Assembly: GCA_029262515.1 (NCBI GenBank)
Contig: JAJCZH010000009.1
Location: 1 to 34,961 of the forward strand
From: Deltaproteobacteria bacterium
Lineage (GTDB): Bacteria; Desulfobacterota; GWC2-55-46; JADFVP01
Direction of reading: 5' to 3'
Length of the DNA stretch: 34,961 bases
Shown here piece by piece: positions 4,739 to 26,567 of the stretch. Numbering within the stretch: the stretch's first letter is position 1; each line of letters begins with the position of its first letter. The notes beneath the pieces were generated by a model. It did not search any database. It was not told the origin of the DNA and saw nothing but the letters and a program-made list of their open reading frames with translations. The translations under genes were made by a program, and so were the position numbers.

Positions 4739-5625
4739 ACCTTCATAAACTTCGCCATAGAGATGAAGCTCCCGGCAACCCCTGCGGCCACCCCGACGAG
4801 CACCAGCATGACTAGTAGCGTTACGGTTGAGACAGGCATAACCAGCATAAAACCGAGATAGTCAGGTACATTAGCCGCCAGAACCCAGTGCCATAAGAGC
4901 AAAAGGCCAAGAGAAATAAGACCGCCGCAGAGGCCCTGCACGACACCTTCAATAAAAAACGGCGCCTTGATAAAGAAGTTCGAGGCGCCGACAAGGCGCA
5001 TAACCTCTATCTCATCCCGCCTTGCGTATACGGTAAGGCGTATCGTATTAATAATAATAAAGAGAGTCGCAATAGCTAGGAAGAGGCCGAAGACGAGAGC
5101 TGCAAGCTCAACGAACTTCAAGACAGAAGAGAGCCGTGTGGCCCACTCTGCGCTGTACTCAACGGAATCGACCCACTTCAGCCGCTTCAACGCAGTTACC
5201 ACATCCGCCAGACTATCCGGGTCCCGGTACTCCGGCTCAAGGGCAACCTCAAAAGAGGCCGGCAACATAGCGCTATCTATACCTTCAAATAGGTCTTGCC
5301 CGCCGAACTCATTTTTCAACTCACCGAGCGCAGAGGAGGCCGATATGTACTCTGCGGAACTTACTCCCTCGACCGCATTAACCAGCGTAGATAACCTCTT
5401 TAGCTCAGACGAAGAGGTCGGGCTTTTAAAGTAGAGAACGACATTGGTCTTATCGCCGAGATTGTCGAGCGCGAGGTTGAGGTTCATGAACAGGATTAAG
5501 AAGAGAGCGAAGAGAGCGAGCGCAAAACCGAGCGTTACGGAGGTAAAGAGCGCAGTAAGAGTATTGCTCCTTAGCGAGCTAAAGGCATCTTTTACAAAAT
5601 AAATCAAATTTGAGACCGGACCCAT
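4735..5625 (-). CDS. ftsX: Cell division ABC transporter-like permease FtsX
   Basis: The product is 296 residues with the FtsX layout: a cytoplasmic N-terminus, TM1 (about 22-47), an extracytoplasmic domain (about 50-165), then three further TM segments (about 170-197, 222-250 and 262-290). FtsX pairs with FtsE at the septum and transmits ATP-driven conformational change to periplasmic murein hydrolase regulators. The start codon overlaps the ftsE stop by 1 nt and the stop overlaps the envC start by 4 nt, so the three genes are tightly coupled. No unusual features were seen. Confidence 0.95.
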   Translation of the reverse strand: MGPVSNLIYFVKDAFSSLRSNTLTALFTSVTLGFALALFALFLILFMNLNLALDNLGDKTNVVLYFKSPTSSSELKRLSTLVNAVEGVSSAEYISASSALGELKNEFGGQDLFEGIDSAMLPASFEVALEPEYRDPDSLADVVTALKRLKWVDSVEYSAEWATRLSSVLKFVELAALVFGLFLAIATLFIIINTIRLTVYARRDEIEVMRLVGASNFFIKAPFFIEGVVQGLCGGLISLGLLLLWHWVLAANVPDYLGFMLVMPVSTVTLLVMLVLVGVAAGVAGSFISMAKFMKV

Positions 5626-6278
5626 CAGTACGTGAACCTCCCGGCTTCAAGGTGCGCAGTCCGTTTGGCGTACCGCTCTATAAGGCTCTTGTCATGGGTT
5701 GCGATTATAACGGTAGTCCCCTTGTTGTTGACCTCCTTGAAGAGCTCAATGGTATCTATGGAGAGTTCGGGGTCGAGGTTTCCGGTAGGCTCATCGGCGA
5801 GTATAATAGCCGGTTCCTTAACAAGCGCACGGGCTATTGCCACCCTCTGCTGCTCACCACCCGAAAGGCTCATGGGACTGAAGTTCGCCCGGTGCTGTAT
5901 CTTGAGGTAAGAGAGTATCCTTAGCACACGCCGCCTCACATCCCTCTGCCCTATACCCATTACGTTCAAGGCGAGTGCGACGTTCTCGTATACGCTCTTG
6001 TTGGCGAGCAGTTTAAAGTCCTGAAAAACAAAACCGATTCTACGCCTGAGGGGTGGAATCTCTTTTTGAGGAATACGGTAGTAATTCCTGCCGTCTATTA
6101 TAATCTGACCGCCGGTAGGGCTCTCCGAACCGAATATTATCTTCAAAAGGGTCGATTTACCGGCACCGCTCGGGCCGGTAATAAAGAGAAATTCCCCTTT
6201 GTCCACCTTTATAGTAATGTCGTCCAGGGCGTTTGTGCTTCCGTCGTAGCTCTTTGAGACATGAAACAGATCTATCAT
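5625..6278 (-). CDS. ftsE: Cell division ATP-binding protein FtsE
   Basis: The product is 217 residues, a typical single ABC domain. Walker A is GPSGAGKST, the Q-loop is FVFQDFKLL, the ABC signature is LSGGEQQR, Walker B is IILADEPTG and the switch His lies in IIATHD. FtsE powers FtsX in the divisome. I chose the ATG at 6276-6278 (MIDLFHVSKSYDG), which matches family N-termini; an in-frame GTG two codons upstream (6284) is the alternative. It is the first gene of the ftsE–ftsX–envC–ctpA–deacetylase series, with a predicted promoter at 6347-6375. Confidence 0.96.
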   Translation of the reverse strand: MIDLFHVSKSYDGSTNALDDITIKVDKGEFLFITGPSGAGKSTLLKIIFGSESPTGGQIIIDGRNYYRIPQKEIPPLRRRIGFVFQDFKLLANKSVYENVALALNVMGIGQRDVRRRVLRILSYLKIQHRANFSPMSLSGGEQQRVAIARALVKEPAIILADEPTGNLDPELSIDTIELFKEVNNKGTTVIIATHDKSLIERYAKRTAHLEAGRFTY

Positions 6279-6346
6279 GGGCACCGTACTCTACGCCCCC
6301 ATTCGGGCATAAGTTTAGTTGATTTTACAGCAACTTAGCTCAACAC

Positions 6347-6375
6347 ATTATCCCAGCAGCCTCTCAGTATGTCAA
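6347..6375 (-). promoter_or_regulatory. Promoter of the ftsEX operon
   Basis: On the minus strand, TTGACA (6370-6375) is followed after 17 bp by GATAAT (6347-6352). The predicted start near 6340 gives a leader of about 60 nt before ftsE. Confidence 0.7.
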
Positions 6376-6382
6376 GGTTTAA

Positions 6383-6418
6383 TAGAATATGGGCACAAGC
6401 ATCGCGGCGTATATTCTA
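6383..6418. repeat. Inverted repeat between ftsE and the cytochrome gene
   Basis: Arms TAGAATAT (6383-6390) and ATATTCTA (6411-6418) are perfect complements separated by 20 bp. The element lies between the two divergent promoters, just upstream of both -35 boxes. It could bind a shared regulator, but AT-rich 8-bp arms can also occur by chance. Confidence 0.35.
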
Positions 6419-6437
6419 ATTATTTCCATACACATAT

Positions 6438-6465
6438 TTGACAAAGCTGATCTTACGGATAGAAT
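6438..6465 (+). promoter_or_regulatory. Promoter of the cytochrome c gene
   Basis: TTGACA (6438-6443) is followed after 16 bp by TAGAAT (6460-6465), giving a leader of about 80 nt. The gene itself has a strong AAAGGAGG ribosome binding site. Confidence 0.7.
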
Positions 6466-6553
6466 ATATATTAGACTTTTAATTCCGAATATTTTTTTTA
6501 TAGACCAACAGCAATACTAACTCTTAATAACGGATGTCAAAGGAGGCAGTGGT

Positions 6554-6874
6554 ATGCGTAATGCTATTGTAGCAATCGGTACGGTAATGCTCTTTGCTCT
6601 TTCCAGTTCGGCAATGGCTGCAAGTGGTGCAACCTTATTTAAACAGAAATGCTCAGTCTGCCACGGCGCCCAGGGACAGGGTACTCCGGGTATGGCTCCT
6701 AAACTTGCCGGAACCGACTTTATAAAGGGACCGGCAGAACCTATACAGGAAACCATAGTTAACGGTAGGGCCGGAGCCGACAAAAGATATAAAAAACTTC
6801 CCCTTGCAATGCCAAAACTCGGTGTTAAGGCAAAGGACGCCGCAGAGATTGTAAAGTACTTAAAGACCCTCTAG
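6554..6874 (+). CDS. Small periplasmic class I cytochrome c
   Basis: The product is 106 residues: a signal peptide of about 22 residues ending SSSAMA, then a mature domain of about 84 residues. The heme attachment site is CSVCH (33-37), with the His as proximal ligand, and M86 in LAMPKLG is the likely distal ligand. It resembles single-heme electron carriers of the cytochrome c5/c551-c553 group, working in the periplasm. It is monocistronic, with its own promoter and a stem-loop right after the stop codon. The partner enzyme is not in the window. Confidence 0.95.
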   Translation: MRNAIVAIGTVMLFALSSSAMAASGATLFKQKCSVCHGAQGQGTPGMAPKLAGTDFIKGPAEPIQETIVNGRAGADKRYKKLPLAMPKLGVKAKDAAEIVKYLKTL

Positions 6875-6877
6875 AAC

Positions 6878-6916
6878 TTTCCCCTCCCCCGGATTCTGAT
6901 CCGGAGGAGGGGGAAA
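6878..6916 (+). terminator. GC-rich stem-loop after the cytochrome gene
   Basis: Arms of about 16 nt (6878-6893 and 6900-6916) pair with one mismatch or bulge around a 6-nt loop. The following bases are A-rich rather than a T-tract, so it may stabilise the mRNA 3' end or terminate inefficiently. Confidence 0.55.
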
Positions 6917-7052
6917 ATAAGAATAACAGAAAACCTGATCACGACTACTCCGACTTAACCATTACAAATCAACTCAATACCTACCTCAAACTAGCAAAAA
7001 AGTACAAGCAAAGAGGCTTTTTTTCTGATTCATACATTAAGATTTCATTAAT

Positions 7053-7082
7053 TACGGCGATATATTATAGTATATCGCCGTA
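7053..7082. repeat. Perfect 12-bp inverted repeat upstream of the HDOD-GGDEF gene
   Basis: TACGGCGATATA (7053-7064) and its exact complement (7071-7082) flank a 6-bp centre. The centre overlaps TATAGT (7066-7071), a possible -10 element with a weak -35 (TTCATT, 7044-7049). It lies about 60 bp upstream of the ATG. An operator over the promoter is a plausible reading; a leader hairpin is the alternative. Confidence 0.65.
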
Positions 7083-7143
7083 GAAACAGATAGGTGCGTA
7101 TTTCAACAATCCGAATACTGAACAAAAATTAGGCGTATCGAGC

Positions 7144-8661
7144 ATGGCAGTAACAGACAGTATACTGAACAGACTACTCGACGGTACATCCATTAAGATT
7201 CCCTCTCTCCCCGTAGTAGGACTGAGGATCGTAGAGGCCTGCCAGAAAGAGGACTTCTGTCTCAACGAGCTTGTGCAGATTATCTCAACTGACCCAAACC
7301 TCACTGTCAAAACCATACGCCTAGTCAACTCTCCACTCTACTCGCTGATTGCACCGATCAAGAGCATAGACAAGGCCGTCGGGCTCCTCGGAGTCCATGC
7401 TATCAAGAATATAGCCCTCTCGTTCATCATTATTGACGATATGAACACGGATACGTACGTTGGTTTCGATAACAAGTATTTCTGGAAGAGATCGGTCACC
7501 TCCGCTGTAGCGGCCGAAATAATCTCCCAGAAACTGAAACTCAACCTCAGCGGCGCATTTGTCACAGCGCTGCTCATGGACATCGGCGTAATGGCAATGC
7601 ATATTTGCAAACCCGAGAGCTTTAAAGAGGTACTCCAAAAAAAGAAGGACTCGGAAAAGACCCAGATAGAGCTGGAACAGGAGATCTTCGGCTACGACCA
7701 TCAGGAGGTGGGCATGGAACTGCTGAAGGAGTGGGGGCTTCCGGAAGAAATATATATGCCGATTGCCTTCCAGCACAACCTAAAGGACTGCCCGCCCAAG
7801 TATCCTGCCCTCGCCTCGGCACTAAAGGTCGCCGATCTGACAAGCGCTATACTCAATAGCGACCTTAGCGCCAAACGGCTCTGCGAGCTTACTGCTATTC
7901 TTGACAGGAAGCACCAATTGAATGAAGAGACCATAAACTCCTATATGGAAGAGGTGGCTGAAAAGACTATTTCAACGCTGGCCACGTTTGAACTATCTGC
8001 CGGAGAAATGAAACCGTATTCAGAGATACTTCAGGAAGCAAATGAGGAACTCGCAAAAGTTGGCTCATCTTACATACATATGGTGCAGAAGATGAAGCAG
8101 ACAAACGAAGAGGCTGAAAACCTTACGGCAGAGCTGATGGAGTCTAACACGGAGTACAAAAAACTGGCATACAGGGACTCTCTTACAGGACTCTACAATC
8201 ATCGCTTCTTCCACGAGATGATAGAAAAGGAAATGAGCCGCGCCGAAAGATACCTGGCCAAGTTTACGCTCATACTGCTCGACATAGACAACCTGAAAGA
8301 GATCAACGATACACGAGGCCATAAGTACGGTGATATGGTAATCTCTGAATTCGGTAAGTACATACAACAATCAATCAGACAGTCGGATATGGGCGCACGT
8401 ATCGGTGGAGACGAATTTGCAATACTACTGCCAAATATGCACAATAATAATGCCGGGACCTTTGCCGAAAAGTTAAGAACAGGAGTTCTATCCCTCGGCG
8501 TAGAACATAAAGACGGTTCGATAAAGTTCACCATCAGCGTCGGAGTCGGAATATATACGCCAGCAGACGGTATCAAGACCAAAGGTGAGTTTATCGACGA
8601 GATAGACAAAGCCCTCTACAATTCAAAAACGCACGGAAGAAACCGCGTCTCCAAGTCCTGA
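7144..8661 (+). CDS. HDOD domain – diguanylate cyclase (GGDEF) signalling protein
   Basis: The product is 505 residues. An HDOD domain (about 14-215; IPSLPVVGLRIVEAC, TIRLVNSPLYS, AVGLLGVHAIKNIALS) is followed by a helical linker with coiled-coil character (about 280-345) and a GGDEF domain (about 345-505). The catalytic signature GGDEF is intact at 421-425. The inhibitory c-di-GMP site RQSD lies five residues before it, so an active, product-inhibited diguanylate cyclase is expected. No membrane segment is visible, so it is cytosolic. HDOD domains are regulatory; the ligand or partner is unknown. The gene stands alone behind a strong inverted repeat. The ATG has only a weak ribosome binding site. 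Confidence 0.93.
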   Translation: MAVTDSILNRLLDGTSIKIPSLPVVGLRIVEACQKEDFCLNELVQIISTDPNLTVKTIRLVNSPLYSLIAPIKSIDKAVGLLGVHAIKNIALSFIIIDDMNTDTYVGFDNKYFWKRSVTSAVAAEIISQKLKLNLSGAFVTALLMDIGVMAMHICKPESFKEVLQKKKDSEKTQIELEQEIFGYDHQEVGMELLKEWGLPEEIYMPIAFQHNLKDCPPKYPALASALKVADLTSAILNSDLSAKRLCELTAILDRKHQLNEETINSYMEEVAEKTISTLATFELSAGEMKPYSEILQEANEELAKVGSSYIHMVQKMKQTNEEAENLTAELMESNTEYKKLAYRDSLTGLYNHRFFHEMIEKEMSRAERYLAKFTLILLDIDNLKEINDTRGHKYGDMVISEFGKYIQQSIRQSDMGARIGGDEFAILLPNMHNNNAGTFAEKLRTGVLSLGVEHKDGSIKFTISVGVGIYTPADGIKTKGEFIDEIDKALYNSKTHGRNRVSKS

Positions 8662-8869: not shown

Positions 8870-8899
8870 ACGGGCAGCATCTTAAAAGATGCTGCCCGT
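8866..8899 (-). terminator. Terminator of the tRNA-Val–tRNA-Asp unit
   Basis: A perfect 14-bp stem (8870-8883 with 8886-8899) is followed on the minus strand by TTTTTATTT. It lies beyond the 23-bp repeat array, so the array would be transcribed as part of the tRNA 3' trailer. Confidence 0.85.
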
Positions 8900-8954: not shown

Positions 8955-9156
8955 CTGCAGCCCGAAAATTTGGCTCCCTGCAGCCCGAAAATTTGGCTCC
9001 CTGCAGCCCGAAAATTTGGCTCCCTGCGGGTTGAAAATTTGGCTCCCTGCGGGTTGAAAATTTGGCTCCCTGCGGGTTGAAAATTTGGCTCCCTGCGGAT
9101 TGAAAATTTGGCTCCCTGCGGATTGTAAACTCGGCCCCCTGCGGGTTGTAAAAAAA
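8955..9156. repeat. Tandem array of 23-bp repeats (about 8.5 units)
   Basis: Units start at 8955, 8978, 9001, 9024, 9047, 9070, 9093 and 9116, with a partial ninth at 9139. Each begins CTGC(A/G)G and most end TTTGGCTCC. Three variants are ordered in blocks: AGCCCG (units 1-3), GGGTTG (4-6, partial 9) and GGATTG (7-8). Unit 8 and the partial unit next to the tRNA are the most diverged. There are no spacers, so it is not a CRISPR array. The 23-bp period shifts the reading frame each unit, so it is not protein-coding. It abuts the 3' end of tRNA-Asp. Confidence 0.97.
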
Positions 9157-9233
9157 TGGCGGGGCCGACGGGACTCGAACCCGCGGCCTCTGGCTTGACA
9201 GGCCAGCGTTATAACCAACTTAACTACGGCCCC
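9157..9233 (-). tRNA. tRNA-Asp (GTC)
   Basis: This is a 77-nt cloverleaf including an encoded CCA. The acceptor stem is GGGGCCG/CGGCCCC, the anticodon arm is CTGGC/GCCAG with loop CTGTCAA (anticodon GTC), and the T-loop is GGTTCGAGTCC. It lies 25 nt after tRNA-Val and is probably co-transcribed with it. Confidence 0.97.
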
Positions 9234-9258: not shown

Positions 9259-9334
9259 TGGTAGGCGGTACAGGGCTCGAACCTGTGACCTCAGCCTTGT
9301 AAGGGCCGCGCTCTCCCAACTGAGCTAACCGCCC
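9259..9334 (-). tRNA. tRNA-Val (TAC)
   Basis: This is a 76-nt cloverleaf with encoded CCA. The acceptor stem is GGGCGGT/ACCGCCT, the anticodon loop is CTTACAA (anticodon TAC) and the T-arm contains GGTTCGAGCC. It is the first of a two-tRNA unit downstream of lon. Confidence 0.97.
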
Positions 9335-26183: not shown

Positions 26184-26567
26184 ATGGCTAAAACCGTAAC
26201 CGCACTAAAGGACATACTCAAGCGTGAAGAGGTAGTTCTTGCAAAGCTCGTCGCGACCACCAAGATTATGGTACACAAAGACAGCAAGGCTGCGGTAAGG
26301 GCAATTATCAAGGCCAAGAAGGCTGCGATATCGGCTTACAAGAAAATTATAAAGGCAAGCGAAAAGTGCCCGGCGGTAAAACCGACTCCTTCTAAAAAAT
26401 CTGCAGCAACCAAATCCGTAACCAAAAAGAAGGCAGCACCAAAGAAGGCAGCTGCAAAGAAAGCGACACCAAAAAAAGCGGCTGCTAAGAAGAAGGCCGC
26501 ACCTAAGAAGGCAACCGCAAAGAAAGCGGCACCAAAAAAGAAGGCGGCTGCAAAGAAGAAAAAGTAA
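26184..26567 (+). CDS. Histone H1-like, lysine/alanine-rich DNA-binding protein
   Basis: The product is 127 residues. An N-terminal part of about 65 residues is predicted helical (ALKDILKREEVVLAKLV, AIIKAKKAAISAYKKII). A C-terminal tail from about residue 70 is built of repeated KKAAPKKAAAKK-like units with almost only Lys, Ala, Pro and Thr. This is the composition of eukaryotic H1 tails and of bacterial H1-like proteins, which bind and compact DNA or RNA non-specifically. A strong GAAGGAG site and a strong terminator suggest good expression. The N-terminal domain does not match a family I can name with certainty. The repetitive tail may vary in length between strains. Confidence 0.85.
   Translation: MAKTVTALKDILKREEVVLAKLVATTKIMVHKDSKAAVRAIIKAKKAAISAYKKIIKASEKCPAVKPTPSKKSAATKSVTKKKAAPKKAAAKKATPKKAAAKKKAAPKKATAKKAAPKKKAAAKKKK

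Follow-up and report, generated by a model that had tools for sequence, protein, structure and literature searches.

The array and its setting

What is an array of 23-bp repeats that lies directly behind a tRNA-Asp gene, and how might it have come to be there? The window, i.e., the whole stretch of DNA that was analysed (34,961 nucleotides), is contig C9 of the 38-contig draft of a 2.5 Mb genome. Its features that bear upon this question are the following, with units numbered as U1 through U9 going away from the tRNA:

9259..9334, minus strand: tRNA-Val (TAC), upstream partner in the conserved Val-Asp pair
9157..9233, minus strand: tRNA-Asp (GTC), with CCA encoded
8955..9152, minus strand: 23-bp tandem array in the tRNA-Asp trailer, eight full units and a partial one of 14 nt
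9130..9152, minus strand: U1, TTTACAACCCGCAGGGGGCCGAG, the tRNA-proximal and most diverged unit
9084..9129, minus strand: U2-U3 block, AATCC type, with U2 TTTACAATCC... and U3 TTTTCAATCC...
9015..9083, minus strand: U4-U6 block, AACCC type, three identical units, TTTTCAACCCGCAGGGAGCCAAA
8969..9014, minus strand: U7-U8 block, GGGCT type, two identical units, TTTTCGGGCTGCAGGGAGCCAAA
8955..8968, minus strand: U9, TTTTCGGGCTGCAG, the partial distal unit, GGGCT type
8870..8899, minus strand: intrinsic terminator of the tRNA operon, a 13-pair hairpin with 14-nt perfect arms

As called by TRF over the window, the array has a 23-bp period with 8.2 copies, 92% matches, 0% indels, and a score of 273 (8964-9153). 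Read in the register of the minus strand, which is the transcribed strand, there are eight full units running from 9152 down to 8969, followed by the 14-nt partial unit (8968-8955), and four nucleotides, TTTT, separate U1 from the encoded CCA of tRNA-Asp. A preliminary description of this DNA had proposed an exact 23-bp period with eight full units and a partial one, along with greatest divergence in the unit nearest the tRNA; TRF and the register given here agree with the former, and U1 with the latter. An indel-free, eight-copy 23-mer is no chance event. The units stand head-to-tail and in register, and their size is above the approximately 10-20 bp minimum for minisatellites. Internal repeats (KKAAPKKA) are seen as well within a small, Lys-/Ala-rich, histone H1-like protein encoded elsewhere in the window (26184-26567).

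The hairpin at 8899-8870 is the sole strong terminator downstream of the array on the minus strand. As that terminator comes only after the array, the array should be present in the primary transcript along with tRNA-Val and tRNA-Asp, as implied by this layout. The array is found, that is, within the trailer, between tRNA-Asp and the terminator, just as the preliminary description had placed it.

Distribution

Within its own genome the array is a single locus and its unit is unique, with this uniqueness based on both pattern and DNA searches. Particularly, the unit core, at one mismatch or fewer, was found outside of the array solely as two single 13-mers, which is about what was seen with a reversed-pattern control. 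A pattern scan of genome contigs with two units also came up empty. Recurrence of the unit elsewhere in this genome, as the preliminary description had raised, is not seen beyond that chance level. When 62 other genomes from the class were searched at the DNA level, no second array turned up, the sole weak match (G011, E 0.008) falling inside the coding sequence of a cytochrome-like protein. A dispersed repeat family can be dismissed, there being no other copies in this genome or in the others searched, and searches of plasmids, phages, and viral contigs likewise gave no copy of the array.

Named relatives that were found via the Lon protein are mostly uncultured, Deltaproteobacteria-like bins. 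The order of tRNA-Val and then tRNA-Asp is kept throughout the class. Behind tRNA-Asp, in most relatives, a short spacer of some 5-30 nt precedes a hairpin which is intrinsic-terminator-like but whose sequence varies from genome to genome. As most relatives display this short spacer plus a hairpin of unrelated sequence, the tRNA-Asp trailer can be described as fast-changing. In many relatives ftsE directly follows the tRNA-Val/Asp pair, and in the window cytochrome c and HDOD-GGDEF genes intervene (5625-8661).

An array-free version of the locus is supplied by G002, a genome of the same genus, in which the HDOD-GGDEF gene (72% identical between the two), the terminator, tRNA-Asp, and tRNA-Val all are present and the array is absent. 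There the terminator is found approximately 16 nt behind tRNA-Asp, with nothing else between the tRNA and the HDOD-GGDEF gene. As the two contigs involved (C249 and C161) overlap exactly over 83 nt, the end of the one with the HDOD-GGDEF gene against the start of the one with tRNA-Asp, and as the terminator alone stands between gene and tRNA, this array-free state is seen directly. Copy number therefore differs between lineages, being zero in G002 at an intact locus, and variability, which the preliminary description had suggested among strains, is seen between species. Judged from the sequences compared, the array belongs to this one species or strain, and recent growth in this lineage would be the simplest reading. 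The direction of change, i.e., gain here rather than loss from G002, we infer from absence of the array in all of the relatives, among which there is no outgroup with a partial array.

Probable origin as a minisatellite

The array most likely is a lineage-specific, near-neutral minisatellite, one which grew by slippage or template switching within a fast-changing tRNA trailer. Some 23 nt immediately following tRNA-Asp would have been duplicated, the tandem copies being there to be seen and the mechanism being deduced from them, with whole units then added via replication slippage or instead unequal exchange. Growth by whole-unit duplication, as the preliminary description had supposed, is indicated by the standing of identical neighbours in blocks. 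Upon tRNA 3' processing, the array presumably would be excised along with the rest of the trailer.

The distal units may retain more detail of this history. In U7-U9, CAACCCG has become CGGGCTG, that is, four of five adjacent bases have been changed in a cluster, and the GGCT so made is an inverted match to the adjacent, downstream AGCC. One template switch at this near-palindrome may have made the GGGCT type, which could then have spread by duplication. A dimer of the GGGCT type folds with a z of -2.0. For the proximal end, suggestive only is that U1 was seeded from a terminator arm like that in G002, where, compared by eye, AGGGGG is found at equal offset behind the tRNA.

As a counterpoint, a new function that is limited to one species would look like a neutral array. 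Similarly, the fact that all units are 23 nt, without indel, might reflect constraint, but a young array would account for this equally well.

Repeats that are known behind tRNA genes include the tyrT distal repeats of E. coli (rtT), whose units of approximately 178 bp each duplicate the 3' end of the tRNA. The array resembles rtT in that its tandem units directly follow a tRNA gene and probably are part of that gene's transcript. It differs, however, in that its unit is 23 bp, lacks the tRNA 3' end, and has no significant match to tRNA-Asp (local alignment of array with tRNA-Asp, p 0.22). A closer comparison is with bacterial minisatellites and VNTR loci, as the array too is a non-coding, 23-bp tandem of high identity, with variants grouped by block, which one species has and its sister lacks. 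Minisatellites have been searched for as motifs of at least 20 bp in at least two copies with at least 90% identity between repeats (Genome Biol 2010 R45, PMC2884548). The array is close to a minisatellite by that definition, i.e., an ordinary class of bacterial variation, but differs from it in that some pairs of units, AACCC versus GGGCT type, are less than 90% identical, and differs from VNTR loci in that its copy-number difference, as seen so far, is one between species (G002). By itself, the array is a species-specific repeat and a possible typing marker.

Other readings of the array

The array looks to be without sign of function. Alone it folds no better than do shuffles (z +0.97), nor does a single unit (z +0.86), and the whole trailer does reach a z of -2.2, but with the terminator hairpin included. 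No Rfam family reaches its gathering score here, and relaxing the scores brings up nothing but weak matches outside of the array. A structured RNA, which the preliminary description had entertained as a trailer RNA element, can be discarded given this absence of both fold signal and Rfam family. An excised trailer might instead be imagined as a decoy, with eight near-identical CAAAUUUUC/GCAGGGAGCC modules titrating a small RNA or an RNA-binding protein. Its multiple identical sites and its location in a tRNA trailer with an intrinsic terminator end are in keeping with this, and there is a working precedent in the glyW-cysT-leuZ trailer, 3'ETS-LeuZ, which in E. coli titrates RyhB by pairing (PMC6191717). 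The array likewise sits in the trailer of a tRNA operon that ends at an intrinsic terminator. The known sponge, however, is functional and pairs with RyhB, whereas the genome search supplies the array with no partner site, i.e., nothing elsewhere that is complementary or similar over any length. We know of no tandem repeats in 3'ETS-LeuZ. Together with the lack of structure and the absence of the array from the sister species, this leaves the decoy as quite unlikely, and the analogy to a trailer sponge as possible but unsupported.

Integration classically takes place at tRNA 3' ends, and a protein-binding array of DNA, consisting of iteron-like or attachment-associated repeats, could have been left by an element that had integrated at this one. 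Fragments of the tRNA-Asp 3' end are found elsewhere in some relatives (G014), which is consistent with such events. Among the ORFs adjoining the array, however, there is no integrase or replication gene; the HDOD-GGDEF neighbour is equally placed in the array-free G002; the sequence that follows the array does not significantly match the tRNA end (p 0.14); and nothing in plasmids, phages, or viral contigs matches. The idea of a tRNA pseudogene or att duplicate was rejected as well, with homology of unit or post-array sequence to tRNA-Asp or tRNA-Val not significant. A period of 23 bp does not set successive sites on one helix face. The binding array that had been offered in the preliminary description consequently finds neither helical phasing nor genome sites matching the unit core (at one mismatch or fewer) beyond chance, and is very improbable.

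Coding is harder still to credit. A 128-aa ORF begins inside tRNA-Asp and continues across the array, and could be read as a repeat-coded peptide as the unit is free of stop triplets in all three minus-strand frames. It is this lack, however, that keeps the ORF open, as a stop-free 23-nt unit would be open in every frame anyway; in addition, the start is inside of a tRNA, there is no Pfam match, and the array is not conserved. The ORF is best viewed as incidental, and a peptide as scarcely believable. Nor is this a CRISPR array, as units abut without unique spacers between repeats, and the preliminary description had likewise seen no fit for either coding or CRISPR. As to the assembly, the source is a 38-contig draft, and short reads have difficulty with tandem repeats of about 200 bp, so that copy number might have been collapsed or inflated. 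Units nevertheless show graded variation, which argues against pure duplication in assembly; flanks on both sides are unique, and an array of approximately 200 bp is nearly spannable by read pairs. An artefact of this kind is quite improbable.

Tandem arrays behind other tRNA genes

Are tRNA trailers generally prone to such arrays? Tandem arrays were defined as TRF calls in non-coding DNA with scores of at least 60 and periods of at least 8, and trailers as the 250 nt behind a tRNA. The sample consisted of stretches from four genomes, the tRNA gene loci of five genomes, the tRNA-Val/Asp loci of numerous relatives, and lon loci from many genomes. Behind 248 tRNA genes, with the window excluded, there were nine arrays in 48 kb versus seven in 196 kb of non-coding DNA elsewhere, i.e., 0.19 versus 0.036 per kb or about fivefold (binomial p 0.0013, post hoc and with small numbers). 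At scores of at least 100 the counts were four in trailers versus two elsewhere (p 0.016), and upstream of tRNAs there were three arrays in 40 kb. This comparison was designed after some of the arrays had already been seen, genes were called by ORF length alone, and some of the counted arrays sit between a pair of tRNAs or include fragments of tRNA (L175); the enrichment is a lead, not a result. Should it hold on whole genomes, then tRNA 3' flanks would appear to be not only integration sites but also a hot spot for local duplication. That trailers are the preferred birthplace of arrays in this group, with the present array an extreme product that possibly is useful as a multi-site RNA decoy, is an unlikely extension.

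Unrelated arrays in relatives include those behind tRNA-Asp in G041 (61 bp x 2.1), tRNA-Val at L170 (71 bp x 2.2), and tRNA-Pro in G003 (76 bp x 2.7). A hairpin, CTTACTTTCTTTTT..AAAAAGAAAGTAAGCAAAGAAAAACC, is found directly behind that tRNA-Pro (L310:1578-1860) and also directly behind tRNA-Leu in G002 (L260:980-1024), i.e., in two genera, and has the look of a dispersed, terminator-like repeat; portions of it (AAAAAAAGAAAG..CAAAGAAAAACCAATA) are repeated within the 76-bp array of G003. Behind a tRNA-Leu of the K_Offshore MAG (L116:349-592) are 54-bp repeats in 3.1 copies, each with CTCGCAGTG, which is the 3' end of that tRNA, an arrangement that is nearer to that of E. coli tyrT than is the array of the window. 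Identical or nearly identical fragments of the tRNA-Asp 3' end, away from the gene, are present at G014:C24:6056-6105, G014:C88:2701-2748, and G045:C96:19426-19450, and resemble leftovers of elements integrating at tRNA-Asp. Lastly, at L175:5728-5998, between tRNA-Val and tRNA-Asp, the 5' portion of a tRNA-Asp-like gene is repeated in tandem, with the first two copies broken in their 3' half.
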